DNA from: Halorussus litoreus
GTDB lineage: Archaea > Halobacteriota > Halobacteria > Halobacteriales > Haladaptataceae
Direction of reading: 5' to 3'
Length of the DNA: 64,000 nucleotides
Assembly: GCF_003382685.1 (NCBI RefSeq)
Contig: NZ_KZ859514.1
Span: forward strand, 12,864 to 76,863
Part shown: positions 19,660 through 32,349 of the stretch, one piece after another
How the letters are laid out: every line of letters starts with the position of its first letter
Position numbering within the stretch: the first letter of the stretch is position 1
Made by a program: the position numbers and the translations under genes
Notes under the pieces: model-generated
Database searches by the model: none
Seen by the model: only the letters and a program-made list of their open reading frames with translations
Told to the model about the DNA's origin: nothing

Positions 19660-21669
19660 ATGACCGAACTGTCAGACTCCGACGCCTCCTCGGAAGCGGA
19701 GGCGCGCGACGAGGGAGACCCGGATCACGGGCGACTCGGAAGCGAAGTCGAGGCCGAGGTCGTCGACGACGTCGATCCGGACGACCCCCTGGGTGGACTC
19801 GACATCGAAAGCACCGCCGACATCGAGATTCCCGACCGGCTGGTCGATCAGGTCATCGGGCAGGACCACGCGCGGAAGATCGTGCTCAAGGCGGCCGAAC
19901 AGCGCCGGCACGTGATGATGATCGGCGCGCCCGGCACCGGGAAGTCGATGCTGGCGAAGGCGATGAGTCGCCTGCTTCCCGAAGAGGATCTCGAGGACGT
20001 GATCGTCTACCACAATCCGGAGGACAGCAACGAACCCGAGATCCGAACGGTGCCGGCCGGCGAGGGCAGCGAGGTCGTCGAGGAGCACCGCAAGCGGGCG
20101 AGCAAGCGCCAGCAGGTCCGCAAGAACGTGATGTGGGTCGTCATCGCCGCGATCGCGGTGTACTCGCTCTTCTTCGCCGGCGAACCGCTGCTGGGGATCA
20201 TCGCGGCGGGCGTCATCTATCTGGCGTTCCGCTACGGCACCTCGGACGTCGAGGCCGAGATTCCGAAACTGCTGGTCGACCACGCCGACCAGACCACTGC
20301 GCCGTTCGAGGACGCGACGGGTGCCCACGCCGGCGCGCTGCTCGGCGACGTGCGCCACGACCCGTTCCAGTCGGGCGACATGAGCACGCCGAGTCACAAC
20401 CGCGTGGAGGCGGGTGCCATCCACAAGGCGAACAAGGGCGTCCTCTTCCTCGACGAGATCAACACGCTCGACATCCGGTCCCAGCAGAAGCTGATGACTG
20501 CGATCCAGGAGGGCGAGTTCTCCATCACCGGCCAGTCCGAGCGCAGTTCCGGCGCGATGGTCCAGACTCAGCCGGTGCCCTGCGACTTCGTCATGATCGC
20601 GGCGGGCAACGTCGACGCGATGGAGAACATCCATCCAGCGCTCCGAAGCCGGATCAAGGGGTACGGCTACGAGGTGTTCATGGACGACACCATCGAGGAC
20701 ACTCCGGAGATGCGCCGGAAGTACGCCCGCTTCGTCGCCCAGGAGGTCGAGAACGACGGCCGCCTCCCGCACTTCGACGAGGAGGGGGTCGAGGAGGTCC
20801 TGCTCGAAGCCCAGCGTCGCGCGGGCCGGCAGGACCACCTCTCGCTCAAGCTCCGCGATCTCGGCGGGCTCGTCCGCGTGGCTGGCGACATCGCTCGCGG
20901 GGAGGACGCCGAGTTCACCAGCCGCGACCACGTCCTGCTGGCGAAACAGCGCTCGCGCTCCATCGAACAGCAGATCGCCGACGACTTCATCGAGCGCCGA
21001 AAGGACTACGAACTCACCGTCAGCGACGGCGACGTGGTCGGCCGGGTCAACGGCCTCGCCGTGATGGGCGACGACAGCGGCGTGATGCTCCCCGTGATGG
21101 CCGAGGTGACCCCGGCGCAGGGCGGCAGCGAGATCGTCGCAACCGGCCAGTTGAAGGAGATGGCCGAGGAGTCCATCCAGAACGTCTCGGCCATCATCAA
21201 GAAGTACAGCGACGAGGACCTCACCGAGAAGGACCTGCACGTCCAGTTCGTGCAGGTGGGCAACCAGGGCGTCGACGGGGCCTCGGCGTCCATCACGGTC
21301 GCGACCGCCATCATCTCCGCGCTGGAGGAGGTCCCCATCGCGCAGGACCTCGCGATGACGGGCTCGCTGTCGGTCCGGGGCGACGTGCTCCCGGTCAGCG
21401 GTGTCACGCACAAGATCGAGGCCGCCGCGAAAGCCGGCATCGAACGGGTCGTCATCCCCGACGCCAACGAGGAGGACGTGATGATCGAAGAGGAGTACGA
21501 GGAGCAGGTCGAGATCGTCCCCGTCTCGCACATCAGCGACGTGATCGAGGTCGCGCTCGCAGGAGAACCGGACGACAGCGGTCTCGCCGACCGGCTGAAG
21601 CGCGTCGCGCAGGGCACGTTCGACGAGGACTCGGAGGCCGGCGGGAAACCCAGTCCGACGCCGCAGTAG
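19660..21669 (+). CDS. lonB: archaeal membrane-anchored ATP-dependent protease LonB
   Basis: The 669-residue LonB degrades regulatory and misfolded proteins at the membrane and is essential in haloarchaea that have been tested. An acidic N-terminus leads to the AAA+ domain: Walker A GAPGTGKS (89-96) and Walker B VLFLDEIN (261-268). Two membrane helices (about 156-191) are inserted in the ATPase domain, the archaeal LonB hallmark. The C-terminal protease domain has the catalytic Ser in VDGASAS (S542) and the Lys in SGVTHKIEAA (K585). An acidic tail follows. It is preceded by a strong AT-rich promoter. Confidence 0.96.
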   Translation: MTELSDSDASSEAEARDEGDPDHGRLGSEVEAEVVDDVDPDDPLGGLDIESTADIEIPDRLVDQVIGQDHARKIVLKAAEQRRHVMMIGAPGTGKSMLAKAMSRLLPEEDLEDVIVYHNPEDSNEPEIRTVPAGEGSEVVEEHRKRASKRQQVRKNVMWVVIAAIAVYSLFFAGEPLLGIIAAGVIYLAFRYGTSDVEAEIPKLLVDHADQTTAPFEDATGAHAGALLGDVRHDPFQSGDMSTPSHNRVEAGAIHKANKGVLFLDEINTLDIRSQQKLMTAIQEGEFSITGQSERSSGAMVQTQPVPCDFVMIAAGNVDAMENIHPALRSRIKGYGYEVFMDDTIEDTPEMRRKYARFVAQEVENDGRLPHFDEEGVEEVLLEAQRRAGRQDHLSLKLRDLGGLVRVAGDIARGEDAEFTSRDHVLLAKQRSRSIEQQIADDFIERRKDYELTVSDGDVVGRVNGLAVMGDDSGVMLPVMAEVTPAQGGSEIVATGQLKEMAEESIQNVSAIIKKYSDEDLTEKDLHVQFVQVGNQGVDGASASITVATAIISALEEVPIAQDLAMTGSLSVRGDVLPVSGVTHKIEAAAKAGIERVVIPDANEEDVMIEEEYEEQVEIVPVSHISDVIEVALAGEPDDSGLADRLKRVAQGTFDEDSEAGGKPSPTPQ

Positions 21670-21778
21670 CCAAAACCGCCACCTGAGTAACGCGACTTCG
21701 CCGTTCCGATTCTGGTTTTCTATCACACACTTCGAGAGTATCGGAAACCATTTGAACCGGTGGAGATATCTCTCCGTC

Positions 21779-22432
21779 ATGCAACGACGAACGTTCGTCG
21801 CAGGGGTGGCAGGTGCGACGGCCGCCCTCTCGGGCTGCATCTCGACCCTGAACGACTTTCGAACGGCGTCCCGGAGCGGGAGTCGCACGTACGACGTCGA
21901 CGCTGGAACGAGCCTCCACGTCCTGAATCGAACCGGCTCTGTGACCGCCGAGCGTCACGACGGCGAGACGGTGACCCTCGACTTCGAGATCGAGGGACCG
22001 TCGAGCGACGCGGTCGAGGCGGTGTCGGTGACCGACTCACACGAGGACGGCGAGCTACAACTCGAAGTCGAGCCCGGCGACTCGTCGGCCGACCGCGACA
22101 CCAGCGTCTCGATGACTGTTCAGTACCCAGACAGCGTGTTCGTGAGTCGGCTGCGGACGCGAAGCGGGTCGATAGACGCAGACGTGTCCGGTATCGAAGA
22201 CGGTGCCGAGATCGAGAGCACGAACGGGAGCGTCGACGCCGCGCTCGCCTCGGGCCTCGACGCGGCGGTGACCGCCACGACGACCAACGGGTCGGTGACC
22301 GTCCACGATCTCGAACTGGATTCGTCCTCGACCTCCGCCACGGAAGTGTCGGGGACGCTGGGTGACGGCTCGAAGTCACTCACCCTTCGGACCGAGAACG
22401 GCTCGATAGACCTGCGAGCGCTGTCGGACTGA
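21779..22432 (+). CDS. Tat-exported DUF4097 lipoprotein
   Basis: The 217-residue protein starts MQRRTFVAGVAGATAALSGC: a twin-arginine signal ending in an LSGC lipobox, so it is probably a lipid-anchored surface protein. The rest is a DUF4097-type beta-solenoid with repeats such as RTRSGSIDADV, ESTNGSVDAAL, TTTNGSVTVHDL and RTENGSIDLRAL. The repeating NGS also offers N-glycosylation sites. The ATG at 21779 gives the compact signal; a TTG nine codons upstream is less likely. It lies just before the lanthipeptide precursor genes but points toward them, so it is not in their operon. Confidence 0.82.
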   Translation: MQRRTFVAGVAGATAALSGCISTLNDFRTASRSGSRTYDVDAGTSLHVLNRTGSVTAERHDGETVTLDFEIEGPSSDAVEAVSVTDSHEDGELQLEVEPGDSSADRDTSVSMTVQYPDSVFVSRLRTRSGSIDADVSGIEDGAEIESTNGSVDAALASGLDAAVTATTTNGSVTVHDLELDSSSTSATEVSGTLGDGSKSLTLRTENGSIDLRALSD

Positions 22433-22512: not shown

Positions 22513-22686
22513 TCAGTTGCAGGGGTCGTCGCCGCACCACTGCGAGCACATACAGGTACACGAGCAGTCTAAGCTCCAGATACCCGTGATTTTCTCGGTG
22601 TGCTCCTCGAAGCGCTCGTCGAAGACGCCCTTGATCTCGGTTTCCGCGTTGTACGCCATGCCGAAGGATGTCTGATTCGTGGACAT
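22513..22686 (-). CDS. lanthipeptide precursor 1
   Basis: The 57-residue peptide has leader MSTNQTSFGMAYNAETEIKG followed by VFDERFEEHTEKITGI, then the Cys-rich end WSLDCSCTCMCSQWCGDDPCN (split here: WSLDCSCTCM, CSQWCGDDPCN). There are 6 Cys in the last 17 residues. The leader is nearly the same as in precursors 2-5, while the C-terminus has diverged. The AT-rich ATTTATTTTTATTTATT at 22711-22727 lies 25-41 bases upstream and can serve as its promoter. It is the most distal precursor from the LanM gene. Confidence 0.8.
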   Translation of the reverse strand: MSTNQTSFGMAYNAETEIKGVFDERFEEHTEKITGIWSLDCSCTCMCSQWCGDDPCN

Positions 22687-22851
22687 CACCGAGAAGTGTA
22701 TCCTGCAACCATTTATTTTTATTTATTAGTTTATATAGAAAAATAAACACTGCTAATCACGCCGGTAGTTCGGGTGTGGGATCTGCGAACCGACGCAACT
22801 GTCTCTGGTCGTGGACAGCCTCGGGTCGAAAAAATCGGGAACGGGTCGGTT

Positions 22852-23028
22852 CTAACAGCCGCAGGAGCAACCGTTACAGTCGCCCGAGCAGAGACAGGAG
22901 TCCGTACAGCTCAGGCTCCAGATGCCGGCGGCCTTCTCGGTGTACTCCTCGAAGCGCTCGTCGAAGACGCCCTTGATCTCGGTTTCTGCGTTGTACGCCA
23001 TGCCGAAGGATGTCTGATTCGTGGACAT
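22852..23028 (-). CDS. lanthipeptide precursor 2
   Basis: The 58-residue peptide has the same leader as precursor 1 (MSTNQTSFGMAYNAETEIKG) and core WSLSCTDSCLCSGDC plus NGCSCGC. It differs from precursor 3 by one residue (AAGI against AAGV) and one silent base, so the two arose by very recent duplication. The core offers Ser/Thr for dehydration and seven Cys. A promoter element with AGTATAGAAAAGTATAAG (minus strand) lies 26-45 bases upstream. Confidence 0.85.
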   Translation of the reverse strand: MSTNQTSFGMAYNAETEIKGVFDERFEEYTEKAAGIWSLSCTDSCLCSGDCNGCSCGC

Positions 23029-23053
23029 CAACGAAAAAATACTGCCATGCAGA

Positions 23054-23073
23054 CTTATACTTTTCTATACTTA
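23054..23073 (-). promoter_or_regulatory. promoter of precursor 2
   Basis: The minus-strand reading AGTATAGAAAAGTATAAG ends about 26 bases before the ATG at 23028. The same arrangement (AGTATAGAAAACTACAAGTA) precedes precursor 3, and a variant (GTGTAGAAAAATACAAAT) precedes precursor 4. Confidence 0.6.
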
Positions 23074-23194
23074 GCTAATAATTATATACTAAATAGTATA
23101 AATAAAGTGCTCCTTCAGACGTTGTGTCTGTCGGTGACGCATCTATCACCGGTGGTCGATATTCTCACGCCAAAAAATCGGGAACGGGTCGGTT

Positions 23195-23371
23195 CTAACA
23201 GCCGCAGGAGCAACCGTTACAGTCGCCCGAGCAGAGACAGGAGTCCGTACAGCTCAGGCTCCAGACGCCGGCGGCCTTCTCGGTGTACTCCTCGAAGCGC
23301 TCGTCGAAGACGCCCTTGATCTCGGTTTCCGCGTTGTACGCCATGCCGAAGGATGTCTGATTCGTGGACAT
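23195..23371 (-). CDS. lanthipeptide precursor 3
   Basis: The 58-residue peptide is a near-copy of precursor 2. The duplication includes about 25 bases downstream of the stop (AATCGGGAACGGGTCGG), whereas the 5' flank differs apart from the promoter motif. The ATG at 23371 is used because it aligns with the other six genes; an upstream in-frame ATG at 23395 would overlap the promoter. Confidence 0.85.
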   Translation of the reverse strand: MSTNQTSFGMAYNAETEIKGVFDERFEEYTEKAAGVWSLSCTDSCLCSGDCNGCSCGC

Positions 23372-23392
23372 CGAGAAAAACATAGTCCTATT

Positions 23393-23415
23393 CATACTTG
23401 TAGTTTTCTATACTT
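23393..23415 (-). promoter_or_regulatory. promoter of precursor 3
   Basis: The minus strand reads AGTATAGAAAACTACAAGTA, with CAAGTATG 22-29 bases before the ATG at 23371. It is shared with precursors 2 and 4. Confidence 0.6.
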
Positions 23416-23625
23416 GGATTATATTTATATTTCTATCTCTTAAATAATTACACTGTCAGAGACGGAAATACGCGTGTGGTCTGCTCTTTTCACCAGTCGG
23501 CAGTCGAACGAAGTCCTCGAAAGCCTTTGGCGTGGTCATGCGAGTCGCGGGGGCCGGAGTGGTCCGCGGTCGTTCGGAGAACTGACTTCAGTTCCAGCCC
23601 CGTCCTCGGACGCTACCGAGACCGT

Positions 23626-23802
23626 TCAGTAGCAGTTAGAGGTGTCGCAGTCACCGGTCGAGCAAAGGCAGGAGCCCGTACAGCTAAAGCTCCAGATGTC
23701 GGCCATTTTGCCGGTGTACTTCTCGAAACGCTCGTCGAAGACGCCCTTTATATCATTTTCCGCCTCGTGCGTCATGCCGAAGGATGTCTGATCGGTGGAC
23801 AT
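23626..23802 (-). CDS. lanthipeptide precursor 4
   Basis: The 58-residue peptide has leader MSTDQTSFGMTHEAENDIKG then VFDERFEKYTGKMADI, and core WSFSCTGSCLCSTGD plus CDTSNCY. It keeps the C-T/S-x-S/T-C-L-C-S pattern of the others, but ends CDTSNCY instead of the CSCGC tail. A TATA-like element lies at 23826-23834, 24-32 bases upstream, within a long AT-rich tract. Confidence 0.82.
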   Translation of the reverse strand: MSTDQTSFGMTHEAENDIKGVFDERFEKYTGKMADIWSFSCTGSCLCSTGDCDTSNCY

Positions 23803-23921
23803 CGAGAAGAAATAACTGCGTTAGGATTTGTATTTTTCTACACGAAATTTATATTATATTTTATATATATTAAACTATTATGTGTTATAAACGAGAAAGA
23901 CACGTAGGTACGCCGTTCTTT

Positions 23922-24101
23922 TCAGTAGTTGGCATACGGGTCGCAGTCGACAGTCGTCGAGCAGAGACAGGTGTCCGTACAGCCAAGGGTCCAGGTGCCA
24001 GCGATTTTCTCGGTGTACTCCTCGAAGCGCTCGTCGAAGACGCCCTTGATCTCGGTTTCCGCGTTGTACGCCATGCCGAAGGATGTCTGATCGTGTGTCA
24101 T
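23922..24101 (-). CDS. lanthipeptide precursor 5
   Basis: The 59-residue peptide begins MTHDQTSFGMAYNAETEIKG, followed by VFDERFEEYTEKIAGT, and has core WTLGCTDTCLCSTTVD plus CDPYANY. It has only four Cys but several Thr, the best Thr-to-Cys balance of the set. Only 62 bases separate its start from the end of precursor 6, and its own promoter is weak (GATAAACTA near 24136), so it may be read from the precursor 6 promoter. Confidence 0.82.
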   Translation of the reverse strand: MTHDQTSFGMAYNAETEIKGVFDERFEEYTEKIAGTWTLGCTDTCLCSTTVDCDPYANY

Positions 24102-24163
24102 CGTGAGAAGTGCCTTACCGCTACCTACTGGCTTTCGATAAACTAGCGTCGGGGTTGTTCAGT

Positions 24164-24340
24164 TCAGCAACAGCAGGAACAACCGTTGCAGCCGAACGAG
24201 CAGATACACGAGCAGGAGAAGCCGAAGTCGAACGTGTCCGGCACTGCGTCGCTCTCGAAGAGACGGTCGAGTTGCGTCTTGAGTTCACTGTCGGTGGTGC
24301 TGTGCGTCATGCCGAAGGTGGAAGTCTGAGTTGCTGACAT
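24164..24340 (-). CDS. lanthipeptide precursor 6 (second leader type)
   Basis: The 58-residue peptide has a different leader, MSATQTSTFGMTHSTTDSEL then KTQLDRLFESDAVPD, but keeps the QTS(T)FGM start motif. The core is FGFSCSCICSFGCNGCSCCC, with eight Cys and four Ser. The ATG at 24340 aligns with precursor 7; an ATG ten codons upstream overlaps the promoter. A TATA box CTTATAATTT (plus strand) lies at 24367-24376, 27-36 bases upstream. Confidence 0.82.
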   Translation of the reverse strand: MSATQTSTFGMTHSTTDSELKTQLDRLFESDAVPDTFDFGFSCSCICSFGCNGCSCCC

Positions 24341-24601
24341 CCGAGAATGCTTTTCTCCGATAGTCACTTATAATTTACCTTTATATTTAATTATACAACA
24401 TGAATTGTACTCGTATCCGAATCGGGACGACGAGCGGTCTATCGGTCCACGGTTCGACGCGGCTGCGTGGCGGTGTCGCGCTTCCCCAGTGACGCCGAAA
24501 AAACGGTACTGGTCGGCTGCGAATCGCTCGGAACTGCCGAACTGTGGGTCGCTTGGAACTGTGAATCACTCGAAACCGGCGTTGGTCCCGAGTTCAGTTC
24601 C
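24341..24601. other. gap between precursors 6 and 7
   Basis: The first 60 bases are the AT-rich promoter of precursor 6. The remaining roughly 200 bases are of normal GC content and I see no gene or repeat in them; a decayed precursor is possible but no leader motif remains. Confidence 0.4.
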
Positions 24602-24790
24602 TCAGCAACCGCAGGAACAGCCGTCGCAGGCGATGTTCGTGCAGAGGCACGAACCGGTACACCAACCGCTCCACTCGACGGTGTGGACGTCGCCGAGGTC
24701 CACGTCGAACTTCTCGTCGAACAACTGCTTGAGGCTACTGTCACTGGTACTGTGCTGCATGCCGAACGTCGATGTCTGAGTAACGGACAT
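24602..24790 (-). CDS. lanthipeptide precursor 7 (second leader type)
   Basis: The 62-residue peptide has leader MSVTQTSTFGMQHSTSDSSL then KQLFDEKFDVDLGDVHTV, and core EWSGWCTGSCLCTNIAC plus DGCSCGC. The core keeps W-S-x-x-C-T-x-S-C-L-C-T. It is nearest to the exporter genes; the ABC permease ends 85 bases upstream on the same strand. A TATA-like CCTTATATTTC at 24814-24824 lies 24-34 bases before the ATG. Confidence 0.82.
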   Translation of the reverse strand: MSVTQTSTFGMQHSTSDSSLKQLFDEKFDVDLGDVHTVEWSGWCTGSCLCTNIACDGCSCGC

Positions 24791-24874: not shown

Positions 24875-25735
24875 TCAGTAGTGGCCCATCACCCCACGCC
24901 TGCGTGCGACGCGCGAGCAGACGAGAAACACCGCATATCCGGCGAGCGAGTAGACTGCGGCCACTCCGACGAGTATCCCCAGATCGAACGCCGGGAACTC
25001 CCACAGCCGGACGCCGTTGCGCATCGCGTCCTGGAGCATCGACGAGCCCTGAACCAGCGGGAGGAATCGCAACGGGGACAAGCCCGCCACCGGTGCCGCG
25101 ATGAGGCCGACGATGACGAACTGCATGAGCTGCGAGACGCTCTCGACGCGCTTGTACACGAGCGCGAGCCCGGCGAACACGAAGCCGATGCCGACCACCG
25201 ACACGAGCGCCAGCAAGGTGACGGGGACGATGGTCAGAACGTCGATGGCGAGCGTCCGCTGGGTCGTCAGCAGTATCAGCCCGAGCATCAACGCGCCGAC
25301 GAGGAAGCTCTGGAAGATGTTGACGACGACCTTCGTGACCATCACCGGCCCGAAGCCGTACGGCGACATGTACAGCTGTTCGAGCGTCCCCCATTCGGAC
25401 TCCTGCGTGACGTTGCCCGGCAGGCTGGAGTACGCCGACTGGGCCATGGTGTAGAGGAACCAGCCCACGATGACGCCGTCGAGCGTCTCGGTGATGGCCT
25501 GATTCCCGCCGACGCTGCCGACCGCGGCCTGTCCGCCGAAGAACAGCACCGCGAAAAACAGGTACGAGGCCAGCATCTGCGCGAGGAAGTTCACCCGGTA
25601 GCGGAGCATGATGCGGAACCGTTTGATGAACAGCTCGCGCAACAGCGTGAGTCCGCCAGCGAGCGACAGGTCCGCACTATCCGATCGGCCCGTGCTATCG
25701 TCGGCTGCCGACGCGGTCTTTCTGGTGTTGCTCAT
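24875..25735 (-). CDS. ABC-2 type permease, lanthipeptide cluster exporter 1
   Basis: This 286-residue membrane protein has six helices in the ABC-2 layout, starting near residues 50-70 and ending with GYAVFLVCSRVARRRG. It contains the amphipathic VTQESEWGTLEQLYMSPYG segment typical of these permeases. Its start overlaps the ATPase stop by 4 bases (ATGA), so the two form one transporter. Located between the precursor genes and the divergent promoter, it probably exports the peptides or provides self-protection; neither is shown by sequence. Confidence 0.88.
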   Translation of the reverse strand: MSNTRKTASAADDSTGRSDSADLSLAGGLTLLRELFIKRFRIMLRYRVNFLAQMLASYLFFAVLFFGGQAAVGSVGGNQAITETLDGVIVGWFLYTMAQSAYSSLPGNVTQESEWGTLEQLYMSPYGFGPVMVTKVVVNIFQSFLVGALMLGLILLTTQRTLAIDVLTIVPVTLLALVSVVGIGFVFAGLALVYKRVESVSQLMQFVIVGLIAAPVAGLSPLRFLPLVQGSSMLQDAMRNGVRLWEFPAFDLGILVGVAAVYSLAGYAVFLVCSRVARRRGVMGHY

Positions 25736-26814
25736 GGGTTCGTCGCTCGTGAAACCGTCTCCGTTTTCCGCTCGGTCGCTTTCCGGTCGCGTTCGTTGGC
25801 GTCCTCGTCGTCGGTGATCTTGAGGAACACCTCCTCGAGATCGGGTTCGACGGCGTCGAACGACTCGACCGACAGGTCCGCCGAGCGCAACTCGTCGACC
25901 AGTTCGTAGAACTCGTCGGTCGTGACGCTCACCTCGAAGCGGGTCGCGTTGGGGAGGCGCTCGAAGTTGTCGGCGTCGAACGTCGACTCGAGTCGGTCGC
26001 GGATCGACGCGTCGAGGCGCTCGGTGACACTCACCTCGTACACCTGCGTGTTGAACAGGCTCAGGAGGTTCTCGACCGTGTCGTCGGCCACGATGTGCCC
26101 CTCGTTCATGATGATGACGCGGTCGCAGACGTCCTCGATGACGTCCATGTCGTGGCTCGACAGCAATACTGTCGTGCCCTCGTCCTCGACGAGGTTTCGG
26201 AGTTCCGAGCGCAGGTCGAGCGAGCTCTCGACGTCGAGGCCGAGCGTCGGCTCGTCGAAGAACACCACGTCGGCGTCCCGAGCCATGGTGCAGGCCAGCG
26301 ACACCTTCTGTTTCTGGCCGCGCGAGAGCTCTCGAACGACCGTGTCGGCCTTCCCCTCGAGGCCGAACTGCGTGACGAGTTCGTCGTGACGGTCGCCCAT
26401 CTCGCGGGGGTCGTTGCCGGCCAGCGCCGAGAAGAACTGCATGTTCTCCTTGACGGTGAGCCGCCAGTAGATGTTGCGAGCGCCCTCCAGGGTCGCACCC
26501 ATCCGCCGATAGGCGACACCCGGCTCGTCGTGAACGTCGATGTCGTCGACCCGAACCTGCCCGGAAGTCGGGACGATGAGTGACAGCAACGACTTGATGG
26601 TCGTGGTCTTGCCCGCGCCGTTCGGACCGAGCAGGCCGACCGCGGTCCCCGGCTCGACCTCGAAGTCGACGCCGTCGACCGCTCGAACCGCCTCGTCGCC
26701 GCTTCCGTACTCCTTCGAGAGGTTCTCCACGGCGATCGCCGGCTCGCCGTCTCCTGACCGGTCCCGATTCGGAGAGGACTCGACCCCGTCCGGCGGCTTG
26801 GATGTGGTTCCCAT
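25732..26814 (-). CDS. ABC transporter ATPase, lanthipeptide cluster exporter 1
   Basis: The 360-residue ATPase belongs to the CcmA/BcrA group that pairs with ABC-2 permeases. Motifs: Walker A GPNGAGKTTT, Q-loop region YRRMGATLEGARNIY, signature LSRGQKQKVSLACTM (Ser-Arg-Gly instead of Ser-Gly-Gly), Walker B VVFFDEPTLGLD and switch His in LLSSHDMDV. A C-terminal domain of about 110 residues follows and may touch the substrate. The ATG at 26814 is chosen because a TATA box lies 25-35 bases upstream; ATGs at 26838 and 26829 would overlap or crowd it. Confidence 0.9.
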   Translation of the reverse strand: MGTTSKPPDGVESSPNRDRSGDGEPAIAVENLSKEYGSGDEAVRAVDGVDFEVEPGTAVGLLGPNGAGKTTTIKSLLSLIVPTSGQVRVDDIDVHDEPGVAYRRMGATLEGARNIYWRLTVKENMQFFSALAGNDPREMGDRHDELVTQFGLEGKADTVVRELSRGQKQKVSLACTMARDADVVFFDEPTLGLDVESSLDLRSELRNLVEDEGTTVLLSSHDMDVIEDVCDRVIIMNEGHIVADDTVENLLSLFNTQVYEVSVTERLDASIRDRLESTFDADNFERLPNATRFEVSVTTDEFYELVDELRSADLSVESFDAVEPDLEEVFLKITDDEDANERDRKATERKTETVSRATNP

Positions 26815-26838
26815 TGTATGTGCGCCCATACGACGCAT

Positions 26839-27011: not shown

Positions 27012-28034
27012 ATGGCCGCCATCGAAACGAACGGGTTGACCAAGGTGTTCGGCGACTCCGTCGTCGCCGTCGAGGACCTCGACCTCGAAGTCGAGCAGGG
27101 CGAGGTGTACGGGTTCCTCGGACACAACGGAGCCGGGAAGTCGACGACAATCGACATCCTCCTCGACTTCCTGCACCCGACCGACGGTAGCGCAAGCGTG
27201 CTGGGACACGATACGCGAGAGGAGTCGCTCGCCATCCGCGAGCGGGTCGGCGTCCTGCCGGAAGGGGCGAAGCTGTACGACCGACTCACCGGGCGCGAGC
27301 ACATCGAGTTCGCGATGGAGATCAAAGGCGTCGACGGCGATCCCGACGACATCTTCGAGCGAGTCGGGCTCGACCGCGACGACGCCGACCGGACGGTCGG
27401 CGAGTACTCGAAGGGGATGTGCCAGCGCCTCGGCCTCGGCATGGCGCTGGTCGGTGACCCCGACCTGCTCATCCTCGACGAACCCTCCTCGGGGCTCGAC
27501 CCGACCGGGATGAGCGAGATGCGCGACCTCATCCGCGAGGAGGCCGACGACGGCACCGCGGTGTTCTTCTCGAGTCACCTCCTCACGGAGGTCGAAGCGG
27601 TCTGCGACCGGATCGGTATCCTCAGCGACGGGAAACTCGTCGCGCAGGACAGCATCGAGGTGCTCCGCGAGCGGTTCGGCGGCGAGGCAACGATAGAGGT
27701 GACTGTCGACGCGGTGCCCGACGACGGATTCGATCTGGAGACCGTCGACGGCGTGCTCGGGTCGACGGTCGACCCCGAGGAAGACACCGTCGTCGTCGAG
27801 TGCGAGGACTCGACGGTGCGGGGCGACGTGGTCCAGCGGGTCGGCGAGGCCGCGACCATCATCGACATCGTCTCGGAGGAAGCTTCGCTGGAGTCGATGT
27901 TCGAGGAGTACGTCCGGAACGGAACCGGCGAGGAACTCGCGGGGGGCGATCTCGACTCCGAGAGCGCCGACGGGTCGACCAAGAGCGAAGAATCAGCGAG
28001 TAGCAACGGGTCGGAGACGGAGGTGGCCCGATGA
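27012..28034 (+). CDS. ABC transporter ATPase, lanthipeptide cluster exporter 2
   Basis: The 340-residue ATPase has Walker A GHNGAGKSTT, Q-loop-region GVLPEGAKLYDRL, a signature YSKGMCQRLGLGMAL, Walker B LLILDEPSSGLD and switch His in FFSSHLLTEV. The last 40 residues are acidic and Ser-rich. It belongs to the same family as the exporter 1 ATPase but is clearly a separate lineage. Its stop overlaps the permease start by 4 bases. It heads the plus-strand arm that ends with the LanM gene. Confidence 0.9.
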   Translation: MAAIETNGLTKVFGDSVVAVEDLDLEVEQGEVYGFLGHNGAGKSTTIDILLDFLHPTDGSASVLGHDTREESLAIRERVGVLPEGAKLYDRLTGREHIEFAMEIKGVDGDPDDIFERVGLDRDDADRTVGEYSKGMCQRLGLGMALVGDPDLLILDEPSSGLDPTGMSEMRDLIREEADDGTAVFFSSHLLTEVEAVCDRIGILSDGKLVAQDSIEVLRERFGGEATIEVTVDAVPDDGFDLETVDGVLGSTVDPEEDTVVVECEDSTVRGDVVQRVGEAATIIDIVSEEASLESMFEEYVRNGTGEELAGGDLDSESADGSTKSEESASSNGSETEVAR

Positions 28035-28876
28035 ACTGGCTCACCATCGCGAAGAAGGACTTCCGCGACGCCCGCCGGTCGAAGATCCTGTGGGGCGCGC
28101 TGCTCATCTTCAACGTGTTCATCGTTGCGGTGCTGGGAACCAACTCGACCGACCCCGGCGGCCCGTACTCGGCCGCGCAGGTCGGCATGTCCACGATGGT
28201 CGGGGTCGGGATGTTCTTCCTCCCGCTCATCATGCTGGTCATCGCGTACCTCTCGATCACCGGCGAGCAGGAGTCGGGTAGCATCAAGTACCTTCTCGGC
28301 CTGCCGAACACGCGGCTCGACGTACTCGTCGGCAAGCTCGTCGGCCGAACTGCGGTCGCGATGCTCGGCATCGGCGTCGCGCTCGTCGTCGGCGCGCTCA
28401 TCATGTCCGTTCGGTTCGACGAGGTGCCGGTCGGCCAGTACGCCGGGTTCAGCCTGATGATACTCTACTTCACGGCGGTGTACGTCGCCATCGCGGTCGG
28501 CGTCTCCGCGCTGTGTCGCACCCGCGCTCGGGCGCTGGCCGGAACGCTCGGCGTCTACTTCGTGTTCAGCGTGCTCTGGATCTTCCCTTCGTTCAACCCA
28601 CAGACCGCCGTCTCGTACGTGGTCGAGGATCTGCTCGGCCTCGCGGCGATGCCGCGGCTGTACGACCTCATCCTCCACCTCAGCCCGTCGTACGCCTTCT
28701 CCATCGCGAACTACGAACTCGTGCTCGACATGACCCGCGGCGGTTACATGGGCACGTACGTCGACGGCTTCCCGTTCTACCTGCAGGGATGGTTCATGCT
28801 CGTCATCCTGCTCGCGTGGTTCGTCGCCCCGCTGGCCATCGGGTACGCGCGCTTCCGCAAGGCCGAGTTGAGCTAA
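28031..28876 (+). CDS. ABC-2 type permease, lanthipeptide cluster exporter 2
   Basis: This 281-residue permease has six membrane helices, an N-terminal MNWLTIAKKDFRDARRSKIL elbow and the ITGEQESGSIKYLLGLPNTR motif typical of the NosY/ABC-2 group. It is coupled to the preceding ATPase gene. With exporter 1 the cluster thus has two ABC-2 systems; in bacterial lantibiotic clusters such pairs usually give immunity, and export uses a peptidase-containing LanT, which is absent here. Confidence 0.88.
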   Translation: MNWLTIAKKDFRDARRSKILWGALLIFNVFIVAVLGTNSTDPGGPYSAAQVGMSTMVGVGMFFLPLIMLVIAYLSITGEQESGSIKYLLGLPNTRLDVLVGKLVGRTAVAMLGIGVALVVGALIMSVRFDEVPVGQYAGFSLMILYFTAVYVAIAVGVSALCRTRARALAGTLGVYFVFSVLWIFPSFNPQTAVSYVVEDLLGLAAMPRLYDLILHLSPSYAFSIANYELVLDMTRGGYMGTYVDGFPFYLQGWFMLVILLAWFVAPLAIGYARFRKAELS

Positions 28877-29109: not shown

Positions 29110-32100
29110 ATGACCACCGTATTCAGCGAGGACCACAAGCGCCTCATCGCCGGGCGGGCTCGCACGCTGTTCGAACGATTCGAGGATCCCGAGGCCGTCG
29201 AACACGGCTTCCGCGACGAGGAGGAGGTCACGGAGATCTTCGAGGAGTGGGAGGAGACGTTCTCGACCGAGGAGTCGTTCGAGCGACGGCTGGATCAGCT
29301 CGACGCGACCGAGGCGGAGTGTCGGCAGGCCATCAGCGCCGACAGGCTCGCCGAGTCCGAACCCATCCCTGAGTGGGTCGACCGGCTCGACGATCTCGTC
29401 GCGTCGGTCCACCGGACCACTCCGGAGAAGGCCGCCGAGCGACTCGGCCCTGAGGGCTATCGGGTCGAGGAAGAGCGAACGTTCAAGCAGCTGTCGGCGG
29501 CCATCGCGGCCCACGCGTGCGACCAGCTCGACGAGTCCGTGCTCGACGTGCTCTCGGCGGAGGCCGTCTGGACGATGGCCGACTGGTTCCGCCGCCGGCT
29601 CGAAGACCGGTTCGTGCGCATCCTGTTCGTGGAGTTCAAAGCGTTCATCGCGGCCCACGACGAGGACATGGCGTTCGCCGAGCCCGAGGACTTCGACGAC
29701 GGCGACCTGCCGACCGACTACTACGAGCTGTTCCTCGGCTACCTGTTCGACGGCGGCTTCGGCGACCTCTGCCAGGAGTACCCGATGTTCGCTCGACTCG
29801 TCGTGACCCAGATCCGCCAGTGGCACGAGCATCTTGAAGAGTTCGGTCGCCGCCTCGAAGCCGACCGGGACGCGCTCGCCGACCGGTTCGGCTACGAGAC
29901 GGGCGTCGGCAACGTGACCCACCTCGAACCGCTGGCCGACGACACCCACGGCGACGGCCGCGCGGTGATGCACGTCGAGTTCGAGTCGGGGCTCGACGTG
30001 GCGTACAAGCCCCGGAGCGTCGAAGCCGGCCAGACGTTCTACCGGATGCTCGAACGGTTCAACGACCACCTCGCGGTCCCCGACTTCAAGACGCCGACCT
30101 ACCTGCCGCGGGGCGACTACGGCTGGATGGAGTGGATCGAGTACGAGGAGTGCGAGGATAGCGACGCGGTCGAACGCTACTACCAGCGAGCCGGGGCGCT
30201 CGCGTCGCTGGCGTACTTCCTCGAGTTCACCGACTGCCAGTACGAGAACGTCATCATCAACGGCGAGTACCCGATGCTGGTCGACGCCGAGACCATCTTC
30301 ACGCCCCACGTCAGCGTCGAGCGCAAGCCGACCCGGACCGGCATCGGCTCGCTCCGGGACAAGAGCCTCCTGCTGACGCTGCTGATCCCCTACGACGTCG
30401 AGGACATGCACACCGACCAGAGCGGCGGCCAGTCGAGCACGATCTCCGGGTTCAGTGACTCGGCCGACGAGGACGTGCTCGAGGACATCACCAATCCCGC
30501 GATCCAGGCGGTCAACACCGACGTGATGAAGGTCGACCACCAGCCGGTGCCGGTCGACCCCAGCGAGAACATCCCGATGGTCGACGGCGAGGCCCAACCC
30601 CCGGCCGACTACCTCGAGGAGTTCCTCGACGGCTTCGAGACAGCCTACGAGACCGTGATGGAGCTGCGCGACACGGGACAGCTCACCGACGACGTCGAAC
30701 TGTTCGACAGCTTCCGGTCGGTCGAGAACCGCATCGTCTACCGACCGACGATGCAGTACGGCAGCGTCATCAAGTCGCTGTCCTCGCGGCATTGTCTCGG
30801 CGACGGGGCGAGATTCGGCGTCGAGATCGACGAGTTGAGCGTCCCGTTCTGCAACGGCATCATCACCGAGCCGAAGCCGTGGGCGCTGTACGACGCCGAG
30901 CGGGTGGCGCTCAAACGACTCGACCCACCGCGGTTCACCTGCCGGCCCGACGACACCGAACTCGAACTTAACGGGGAGACGCTCGGCGTCGAAGCCGACG
31001 AGTCGGGGATGGAGCGCGCTCGCCAGCGCATCGAGTCGGCGTCGGAAGACGACCTCCAGATGCAGATCGAGTTCGTCCGGGGCTGTTTCGGCGTCACGCC
31101 CGACGCGAAGCAGGACGGCAACCGGCCGCCGGACGTCGAGCCCGAGCCAGCTACCGACGAGGCGTTCCACGAGGAAGCGGTCGCGCTGTTCGAGGACCTG
31201 CGCGAGTCGGCGCTCGAAGGCGTGAACGGCGGCTACTACTGGGCGTCGGTCGCGCCGTGGACCGAGACAGAGCGGCTCACGCTCCGGCCGGCCGGCGGGT
31301 CGATGTACTCCGGACGGAGTGGCATCGCGCTCCTCGGCGCGGGGCTGTATCACCTCACCGGCGAAGACCGCTACCGATCGTTCGCGCTGGACGCGGTCCA
31401 GGGCATCCGGCAGGCGGTGCGGCTCGAACTGCCGATGCCGTCGCTCACCAACCACGGCGGCGCGACCGGCATCGGCTCGGTCGCGTACGGGCTCAGCCTC
31501 GTCGGCGACCTCGCGGACGAGCCCGAGATCTACGACGACGTGCGCCAGCTACCGAACTTCTTCACGGACGAGGCGCTCGAAGCCGACGACACGTACGACG
31601 CGACCGCGGGCTCGGCCGGAACCGTCCTCGGACTGCTCGGCGCGCACGACCGGGTTGGCGGTGACGAACTGCTGTCGGCCGCGCGGGACTGCGGCGACTA
31701 CCTGCTCGACAACCGCGTCGAGACCGACGACGGCGTCCGCGTCTGGCAGACCCTCGAAGACTGCCCGCCGATGGCCGGCTTCGCCCACGGCGTCAGCGGC
31801 ATCGCGTACGTGCTGCTCCGACTCTGGAACGTGACTGGCGAGACGAAGTACCGCGACGCAGCGCTGGAGGCGCTGGAGTTCGAGGACGCCCAGTACTCAG
31901 AGTCGGCGCAGAACTGGCCGGATCCCCGCGGCTGGTCGGAGACGGAGTTCCTCGACCAGTGGTGTTACGGCCGGAGCGGCATCGGCCTCGCCCGGCTCGG
32001 GATGACCGAGTACACGACCGACGACCGCGTCACGCGCGGACTCGAACGAGCGGTCGACGGGTTCCCGAACGACGGCATCGACCGCTTCGACCACGTCTGC

Positions 32101-32349
32101 TGTGGCGAGGCTGGTCGGTCGGCGTTCCTGCTCGAAGCCGAGCAGCGCCGGGGCGACCGCTCGGGGGAAGCTCGCGAGCGACTCGGCGCGGTCCTCGACC
32201 GCAAGCGCGAGGCCGGCATCTACCAGACGCTCGCGCACACCGACAAGATCGACGACCCGACGTTCTTCCACGGCACCGCCGGCATCGGCTACTCGATGCT
32301 GCGCGTGACTGCGCCCGACGAACTGCCGAGCGTGCTCCTCTGGGAGTGA
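29110..32349 (+). CDS. lanM: class II lanthipeptide synthetase LanM
   Basis: The 1079-residue bifunctional enzyme would dehydrate Ser/Thr of the precursor cores and close thioether rings with Cys. The N-terminal dehydratase (DUF4135, to about residue 680) shows the kinase-like active-site motifs: YKPRSVEAGQTFYRML, DYGWMEWIE, DCQYENVI (D375, N380) and MLVDAETIF. The LanC-type cyclase from about 700 has the zinc ligands C952 (WCYG), C997 and C998 (VCCGEAG), and HGTAGIGY with H1054. The CCG motif, instead of CHG, gives three Cys ligands as in ProcM-type enzymes. Length is normal for LanM. No other biosynthetic enzyme is nearby, so it probably serves all seven precursors. Confidence 0.95.
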   Translation: MTTVFSEDHKRLIAGRARTLFERFEDPEAVEHGFRDEEEVTEIFEEWEETFSTEESFERRLDQLDATEAECRQAISADRLAESEPIPEWVDRLDDLVASVHRTTPEKAAERLGPEGYRVEEERTFKQLSAAIAAHACDQLDESVLDVLSAEAVWTMADWFRRRLEDRFVRILFVEFKAFIAAHDEDMAFAEPEDFDDGDLPTDYYELFLGYLFDGGFGDLCQEYPMFARLVVTQIRQWHEHLEEFGRRLEADRDALADRFGYETGVGNVTHLEPLADDTHGDGRAVMHVEFESGLDVAYKPRSVEAGQTFYRMLERFNDHLAVPDFKTPTYLPRGDYGWMEWIEYEECEDSDAVERYYQRAGALASLAYFLEFTDCQYENVIINGEYPMLVDAETIFTPHVSVERKPTRTGIGSLRDKSLLLTLLIPYDVEDMHTDQSGGQSSTISGFSDSADEDVLEDITNPAIQAVNTDVMKVDHQPVPVDPSENIPMVDGEAQPPADYLEEFLDGFETAYETVMELRDTGQLTDDVELFDSFRSVENRIVYRPTMQYGSVIKSLSSRHCLGDGARFGVEIDELSVPFCNGIITEPKPWALYDAERVALKRLDPPRFTCRPDDTELELNGETLGVEADESGMERARQRIESASEDDLQMQIEFVRGCFGVTPDAKQDGNRPPDVEPEPATDEAFHEEAVALFEDLRESALEGVNGGYYWASVAPWTETERLTLRPAGGSMYSGRSGIALLGAGLYHLTGEDRYRSFALDAVQGIRQAVRLELPMPSLTNHGGATGIGSVAYGLSLVGDLADEPEIYDDVRQLPNFFTDEALEADDTYDATAGSAGTVLGLLGAHDRVGGDELLSAARDCGDYLLDNRVETDDGVRVWQTLEDCPPMAGFAHGVSGIAYVLLRLWNVTGETKYRDAALEALEFEDAQYSESAQNWPDPRGWSETEFLDQWCYGRSGIGLARLGMTEYTTDDRVTRGLERAVDGFPNDGIDRFDHVCCGEAGRSAFLLEAEQRRGDRSGEARERLGAVLDRKREAGIYQTLAHTDKIDDPTFFHGTAGIGYSMLRVTAPDELPSVLLWE

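Follow-up and report, generated by a model that had tools for sequence, protein, structure and literature searches.

We examined a 64,000-nucleotide stretch of the Halorussus litoreus genome (contig NZ_KZ859514.1, positions 12,864 to 76,863, forward strand; hereafter the window), in which seven tandem precursor genes (P1–P7) lie close to a gene for the class II lanthipeptide synthetase LanM. The locus was best read as a class II lanthipeptide cluster of a haloarchaeal kind that is already known, in which the LanM is ProcM-like and of the CCG type and the leader segments of four precursors of one leader type have been homogenised; we put the probability of this reading as a whole at roughly three in four. 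The genes, the enzyme family, its zinc ligands, the shared leader motif, the promoter boxes and the homogenisation statistics were all computed here.

The precursor array, its LanM and the leader motif

Seven open reading frames (ORFs) from the window's ORF list, between 22513 and 24790 on the minus strand, encode peptides of 57–62 residues (Table 1), in full agreement with the original prediction of seven tandem precursors. Their assignment as lanthipeptide precursors with leader and core was borne out by the adjoining LanM, which scored 734.9 bits against TIGR03897 (cut-off 304) and carries a dehydratase as well as a LanC-like cyclase domain. A profile built from P1–P7 was run against the 3.84 Mb genome and matched P1–P7 (E 1e-34 to 1e-22) and one other place; since it picked up only these, the array is not due to chance.

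Two leader types had been predicted and were found, P6 and P7 having the second type, in which a Thr is inserted (QTSTFGM). The description of the type-1 leader as almost unchanged held for P1, P2 and P3, where MSTNQTSFGMAYNAETEIKG forms residues 1–20 exactly, and for P5 (3/20 residues off), and was generous for P4 (6/20 off); leader conservation extends beyond these 20 residues, to about residue 35. With the core boundary placed in this analysis the cores are 20–23 residues long, and the seven precursors hold six distinct cores, since those of P2 and P3 are identical. The last 20–25 residues had been called variable, which is true of the final 8–12; the head of the core is conserved, and the P2 core equals that of P3. 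The proposal that all cores are hypervariable was ruled out on this identity and on conservation of the core head across genera. A C-T/S-x-S/T-C-L/M-C-S/T block, said to be kept in most precursors, was present in six of the seven, P6 having instead a shorter CSCICS. The ending C[ND]GCSC[GC]C is common to P2/P3 (type 1) and P6/P7 (type 2), with P1, P4 and P5 ending differently; judged from these endings, core types do not correspond to leader types. The distinct cores contain 4–8 Cys and 4–8 Ser/Thr.

All three cyclase zinc ligands (C952, C997 and C998) are present in the window LanM when aligned with LicM2 (PDB 6st5), its Cys997-Cys998-Gly (CCG) standing opposite Cys-His-Gly (CHG) of LicM2. 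The CCG motif is known from ProcM and other promiscuous LanMs and has already been described for Halorussus LanMs (PMC10027976), so that it was expected here and is not new. The genome has two LanMs, on contigs C15 and C16. The second (L044, contig C16) is distant, about 33% identical, with no obvious precursor under the filters applied.

The original prediction had taken QTS(T)FGM for the enzyme recognition site, and this is probably wrong: homologous LanMs of three other genomes (G004, G014 and G391; about 48–56% identical) adjoin precursors without the complete QTS(T)FGM, yet with K/RxxF[DE]xxF. K/R-x-x-[FL]-[DE]-x-x-F was found in 17/17 related precursors from five genomes (this one and four others), its final Phe invariant, whereas the complete QTS(T)FGM occurred, among the same 17, in the window array only. 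The expression [KR]xx[FLYM][DE]xx[FY] selected exactly P1–P7 from 215 window ORFs of 40–90 residues. By this sequence comparison K/R-x-x-F-D/E-x-x-F, not QTS(T)FGM, is probably the motif to which LanM would bind. A haloarchaeal LanA leader motif, Kx(Y/F)(D/E)xx(F/Y), is quoted in PMC10105419 from Castro et al. 2021; compared with the form quoted there, the motif in the 17 precursors is one residue longer, between the Lys and the aromatic residue.

Probable leader homogenisation and the question of selection on the core

Mean amino-acid identities were computed with the leader/core boundary placed two ways. Within P1–P5 the leader identity was 0.79–0.81 and the core identity 0.52–0.54. Between P1–P5 and P6–P7 the leader fell to 0.36 and the core was at 0.48–0.52, the core being better conserved in 8 of the 10 pairs. 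Equal divergence of leader and core had been named beforehand as evidence against the original prediction, and it is what was found between genera: for the window against G127, a genome of the same order but of another family and genus, the identities were 0.44 for the leader and 0.44–0.47 for the core (18 pairs). The leader/core contrast is confined to the young type-1 paralogues P1–P5. Splitting the core of the A-type precursors gave, between genera, an identity of 0.73 for the head and 0.30 for the tail, figures in which the head was chosen for being conserved, so that only the whole-core identities are unbiased.

In codons 5–31 of P1, P3 and P5 there was zero synonymous change in conserved codons against 8.7–8.9 expected at saturation (P about 5e-6), the expectation being computed for silent sites from codon usage in the long genes of the window. 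The nucleotides of these codons were identical at 81/81 positions for P3–P5 and 80/81 for P1–P3, and the 25 nucleotides before the ATG at 9/25 for each of the two pairs. Rare codons (Thr ACA, 2%; Glu GAA, 19%) were shared across the leader blocks. The P2 and P3 coding sequences were identical at 172/174 positions, compared to 16/25 just upstream (Fisher p = 0.001). Because the synonymous sites of the leader are also unchanged, its sameness reflects recent shared copying and not amino-acid constraint alone.

We examined if the data could instead be explained by purifying selection that fixes the leader as an enzyme docking site, together with positive (diversifying) selection that separates the cores. 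The much greater likeness of leaders than of cores within P1–P5 is what such selection would leave, and some of the codon models point the same way. These models were purpose-written, with codon frequencies taken genome-wide or partition-specific and the neutral rate left free or forced equal; pairwise NG86 ratios of non-synonymous to synonymous change (dN/dS) were set aside because of the strong codon bias at third-position GC. Partition-specific frequencies with equal neutral rates gave an omega for the core of 2.06 (p = 0.15) and for its 12-column tail of 11.9 (p = 7e-4), and when the core was compared with leader codons 5–32 alone, under the equal-rate assumption, omega was 4.75 (p = 0.02). 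With the rate left free the core value was 0.55 under partition-specific frequencies and the tail value 2.86 (p = 0.46), the leader and core omegas were never significantly different, and omega was never significantly above 1; genome codon frequencies gave 0.12–0.43 for the core and rejected omega = 1, with p = 3e-5 at the lowest value, for which the rate was free. The claimed footprint of diversifying selection on the mature peptide was therefore not established, core omega running from 0.12 to about 2 depending on the model. Given also the unchanged synonymous sites of the leader, the equal divergence between genera and the identical cores of P2 and P3, we regard selection of this two-sided kind as an unlikely explanation; diversifying selection on the core tail by itself is possible, though unproven.

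Relatives, promoters and neighbouring genes

G127 has the same parts, in the order DUF4097 gene, three A-type precursors, ABC pair, LanM (56% identical to that of the window), ABC pair and two B-type precursors, and P6 and P7 cluster with its B-type precursors (support 0.91). Because both precursor classes are present in this second genus, they predate the split or a transfer of the cluster. The P1–P5 expansion would, from these comparisons, be specific to the present lineage and younger than the two leader classes.

Both genomes with this cluster have the two precursor classes alongside one LanM, and type-2 precursors of the two genera group together, as might be seen if type-1 and type-2 products were the alpha and beta peptides of a two-component lantibiotic, acting together, with the extra type-1 copies providing dosage or variants. 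Roseocin-type lantibiotics (PMC10027976) likewise combine two precursor classes with one LanM, and disulfide plus thioether bonds are plausible for the Cys-rich cores. We nonetheless doubt this explanation, since the C[ND]GCSC[GC]C ending in P2/P3 and P6/P7 makes core types cut across leader types, and five type-1 genes exceed the need of a pair; the window differs from roseocin-type systems in the same mismatch of leader and core types, in its five copies of one class and in a LanM that is CCG, not CHG.

The one other match to the profile in this genome was an eighth, orphan precursor, MSETQTSDELTDGTRTDIKAMFDEAFETESLPEINCSLSATGGCTDSCLCW, on contig C13 (L043 8388–8543); it has the same leader motif and the same promoter box, and its core (CTDSCLCW) is short. 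No LanM was found near it; it is flanked on one side by a gene putatively of the proteasome-activating nucleotidase type and on the other by one putatively of the oligoendopeptidase type. Among 17 congeners no member of the precursor family was detected by profile at E <= 0.01 (best G004, E 0.04), in a class sample of 391 genomes several strong profile matches were obtained in G127 only, and 125 genomes of G127's family contained no further genome with the precursor family. The locus was not found in named GTDB genomes searched with LanM alone; a LanM-alignment search of named GTDB genomes gave 12 loci, and a motif scan of those scanned gave no member of this precursor subfamily. As a separate observation, two LanMs at L042 9597–12896 (+) and L053 10001–13240 (+) (Halostagnicola sp. 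A-GB9-2) have lost the three cyclase zinc ligands (DRWSYG, LADGNC), and each adjoins a precursor-like ORF (L042 6533–6709 (-), L053 6853–7041 (-)) that carries the leader motif and whose core, DTITTTTTVTVTTTTSAPFSCSC, is poly-Thr. This pairing looks like a dehydration-only system with a poly-dehydrobutyrine product.

An AT-rich box, with a consensus near TAGAAAAATATAAG, keeps a constant distance from the start codon (roughly -40 to -26 relative to the ATG) in 16 precursor genes: six of the window (not P5), the orphan, all five of G127, and those of G103, G391 and G004. The AT content at -36 to -27 was 0.81–1.0 across the 16 upstream sequences. This position suits single-gene, near-leaderless transcripts, given archaeal TATA spacing. 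P5, lying 62 nucleotides behind P6 and without a box, probably depends on P6 for its transcription.

Table 1. Features of the lanthipeptide locus, given as positions within the window
Feature	Positions	Strand	Basis
DUF4097 (LiaG-like) Tat-type lipoprotein, abuts P1	21752..22432	+	Pfam and NCBIfam matches
Precursor P1, leader type 1, core ends ...WSLDCSCTCMCSQWCGDDPCN	22513..22686	-	ORF and profile match
Promoter-like AT box of P1, -40 to -26, weakest match	22712..22726	-	position-locked, 16 genes
Precursor P2, leader type 1, core ends ...WSLSCTDSCLCSGDCNGCSCGC	22852..23028	-	ORF and profile match
Candidate LanM recognition motif KGVFDERF in P2, equivalent position in other precursors	22951..22974	-	17/17 precursors; specific among 215 ORFs
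Promoter-like box of P2	23054..23068	-	position-locked, 16 genes
Precursor P3, leader type 1, core as in P2	23195..23371	-	ORF and profile match
Promoter-like box of P3	23397..23411	-	position-locked, 16 genes
Precursor P4, leader type 1, more diverged	23626..23802	-	ORF and profile match
Promoter-like box of P4	23828..23842	-	position-locked, 16 genes
Precursor P5, leader type 1, without own promoter box	23922..24101	-	ORF and profile match, upstream sequence
Precursor P6, leader type 2, core ends ...FGFSCSCICSFGCNGCSCCC	24164..24340	-	ORF and profile match; clusters with G127 B-type
Promoter-like box of P6	24366..24380	-	position-locked, 16 genes
Precursor P7, leader type 2, core ends ...WSGWCTGSCLCTNIACDGCSCGC	24602..24790	-	ORF and profile match
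Promoter-like box of P7	24816..24830	-	position-locked, 16 genes
ABC-2 transporter membrane protein	24875..25735	-	PF12698 just below cut-off; G127 counterpart 59% identical
ABC transporter ATPase	25732..26838	-	PF00005; G127 counterpart 62% identical
ABC transporter ATPase	27012..28034	+	resembles lantibiotic protection family TIGR03740, below cut-off
ABC-2 transporter membrane protein	28031..28876	+	PF12679
LanM, class II lanthipeptide synthetase	29110..32349	+	TIGR03897, DUF4135 and LANC_like, all over cut-off
LanM zinc-ligand Cys952	31963..31965	+	alignment to LicM2 6st5
LanM zinc-ligand Cys997-Cys998 (CCG motif)	32098..32103	+	alignment to LicM2 6st5 and five haloarchaeal LanMs

Two ABC-2 exporter pairs lie between the array and LanM, one on the minus strand (24875–26838) and one on the plus strand (27012–28876). 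On the other side of the array, a DUF4097 gene adjoins the precursors in both genomes with this cluster (window 21752–22432; G127 L039 5585–6436), in differing orientation; in other LanM genomes the DUF4097 genes are far from LanM. The Tat-type signal of the window lipoprotein was assigned by eye, and a single-sequence AlphaFold model (mean pLDDT, the predicted local distance difference test score, of 52) was too poor to use. The lipoprotein weakly matches LiaG and its G127 counterpart weakly matches LiaG and LiaX, DUF4097 surface proteins of Gram-positive bacteria, of which LiaX is annotated as daptomycin-sensing; the matches are far below the NCBIfam cut-offs. Our guess is that it could serve as an immunity or sensing protein. 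Further out, at 19660–21669, is a second, divergent lonB copy, 77–78% identical to the genus orthologues (94–97% among themselves); contig C6 carries the orthologue proper to this genome, and the second copy was probably acquired or is an old paralogue. As a conserved member of the cluster lonB was rejected, the sole lonB of G127 being on another contig.

Weighing of the reading and its place among known systems

From these components we infer leader binding, ring formation, export, cleavage and activity in the following form. One CCG-type LanM would recognise the leader segment K-x-x-F-D-E-x-F, dehydrate Ser/Thr of the core and then join them to Cys in (methyl)lanthionine rings. Export of the peptides, protection of the producer or both would fall to the ABC-2 transporters, and the leader would be cut off by a protease encoded outside the locus. 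Products of the six cores in the array and of the one encoded elsewhere would, most likely, target related haloarchaea as a mixture. Leader types 1 and 2 would represent two old precursor classes that coexist in the second genus, and the type-1 genes a later expansion, during which leader segments were homogenised in P1, P2, P3 and P5, by gene conversion or recent shared copying, and the core tails diverged.

Several results weigh against this account. The residues preceding the core are AG, TG or AD, at best a poor double-glycine site and not GG, and peptidase C39 (PF03412) was absent from the whole genome by domain search, leaving leader removal unexplained; because other haloarchaeal clusters of this kind likewise rely on unknown proteases (PMC12144867), the missing C39 LanT was not taken as disqualifying. 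The homogenisation tests are based on about 26 codons. A Sawyer-type run/permutation test gave pairwise significance but a global p of 0.28, conserved-codon Fisher tests of leader against core for each pair were not significant for P1–P5, and the leader/core difference in neutral rate dropped to p = 0.02–0.10 with partition-specific codon frequencies. Four of the six distinct cores (P1, P2/P3, P6 and P7) also hold more Cys than Ser/Thr (8 vs 4 in P6), and therefore not every Cys can sit in a thioether ring; disulfides or free thiols besides thioethers are likely in the Cys-rich cores, archalan gamma being a precedent for a disulfide alongside thioethers (PMC12144867). The Cys excess and that precedent could be taken further: the cores might be Cys-rich peptides that form disulfides or bind metal, instead of or in addition to carrying lanthionines, with LanM leaving some of them partly unmodified. 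This seems very improbable beside a clear LanM with all three zinc ligands, a leader motif common to precursors of other LanM clusters and Ser/Thr sufficient for 4–8 dehydrations per core.

The lanthipeptide reading agrees with what is known of haloarchaea, where archalans and other relatives are proven products with anti-haloarchaeal activity and surveys of class II lanthipeptides have counted 353 LanAs and 110 LanMs (PMC10105419, PMC12144867), Halorussus having 26 of 67 archaeal LanMs (PMC12144867). Archalans, medlans, larlans and ciblans resemble the present system in their haloarchaea-confined LanM clusters, small precursors whose leader is acidic and whose core is of Cys/Ser/Thr type, adjoining transporters and many precursors per LanM; the window cores are longer (20–23 residues) and more Cys-rich than the products that the text of these two papers covers. 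This precursor family is not mentioned in that text, the supplementary sequence lists being outside the search. Prochlorosins of marine cyanobacteria, made by ProcM or SyncM, share with the present system one CCG LanM alongside many precursors, leaders that stay similar where cores differ, and one precursor remote from the enzyme. The window genome differs from them in having 7 + 1 precursors against 29–79, precursors without Nif11 or any Pfam family over threshold, a core head conserved across genera (0.73) with P2 equal to P3, and no C39 peptidase found.

A bolder view, which we offer tentatively and hold to be improbable as it stands, is that the array is a cassette system for archaeal lanthipeptide libraries, formed by a promoter fixed to the start codon, a homogenised leader and a replaceable tail, where gene conversion would keep the recognition end identical and let the tail vary, and the CCG LanM would accept all precursors including the remote one.

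Arrays of conserved leaders with variable cores are easily taken for diversifying selection on the product. Here concerted evolution of leaders in young paralogues can account for most of the contrast, which vanishes when genera are compared. In compact and testable form, the locus presents an archaeal counterpart to the cyanobacterial prochlorosin problem, with one CCG LanM, many substrates and no obvious leader peptidase, and it offers both a candidate leader recognition motif and, in the DUF4097 protein, a candidate immunity or sensing partner.

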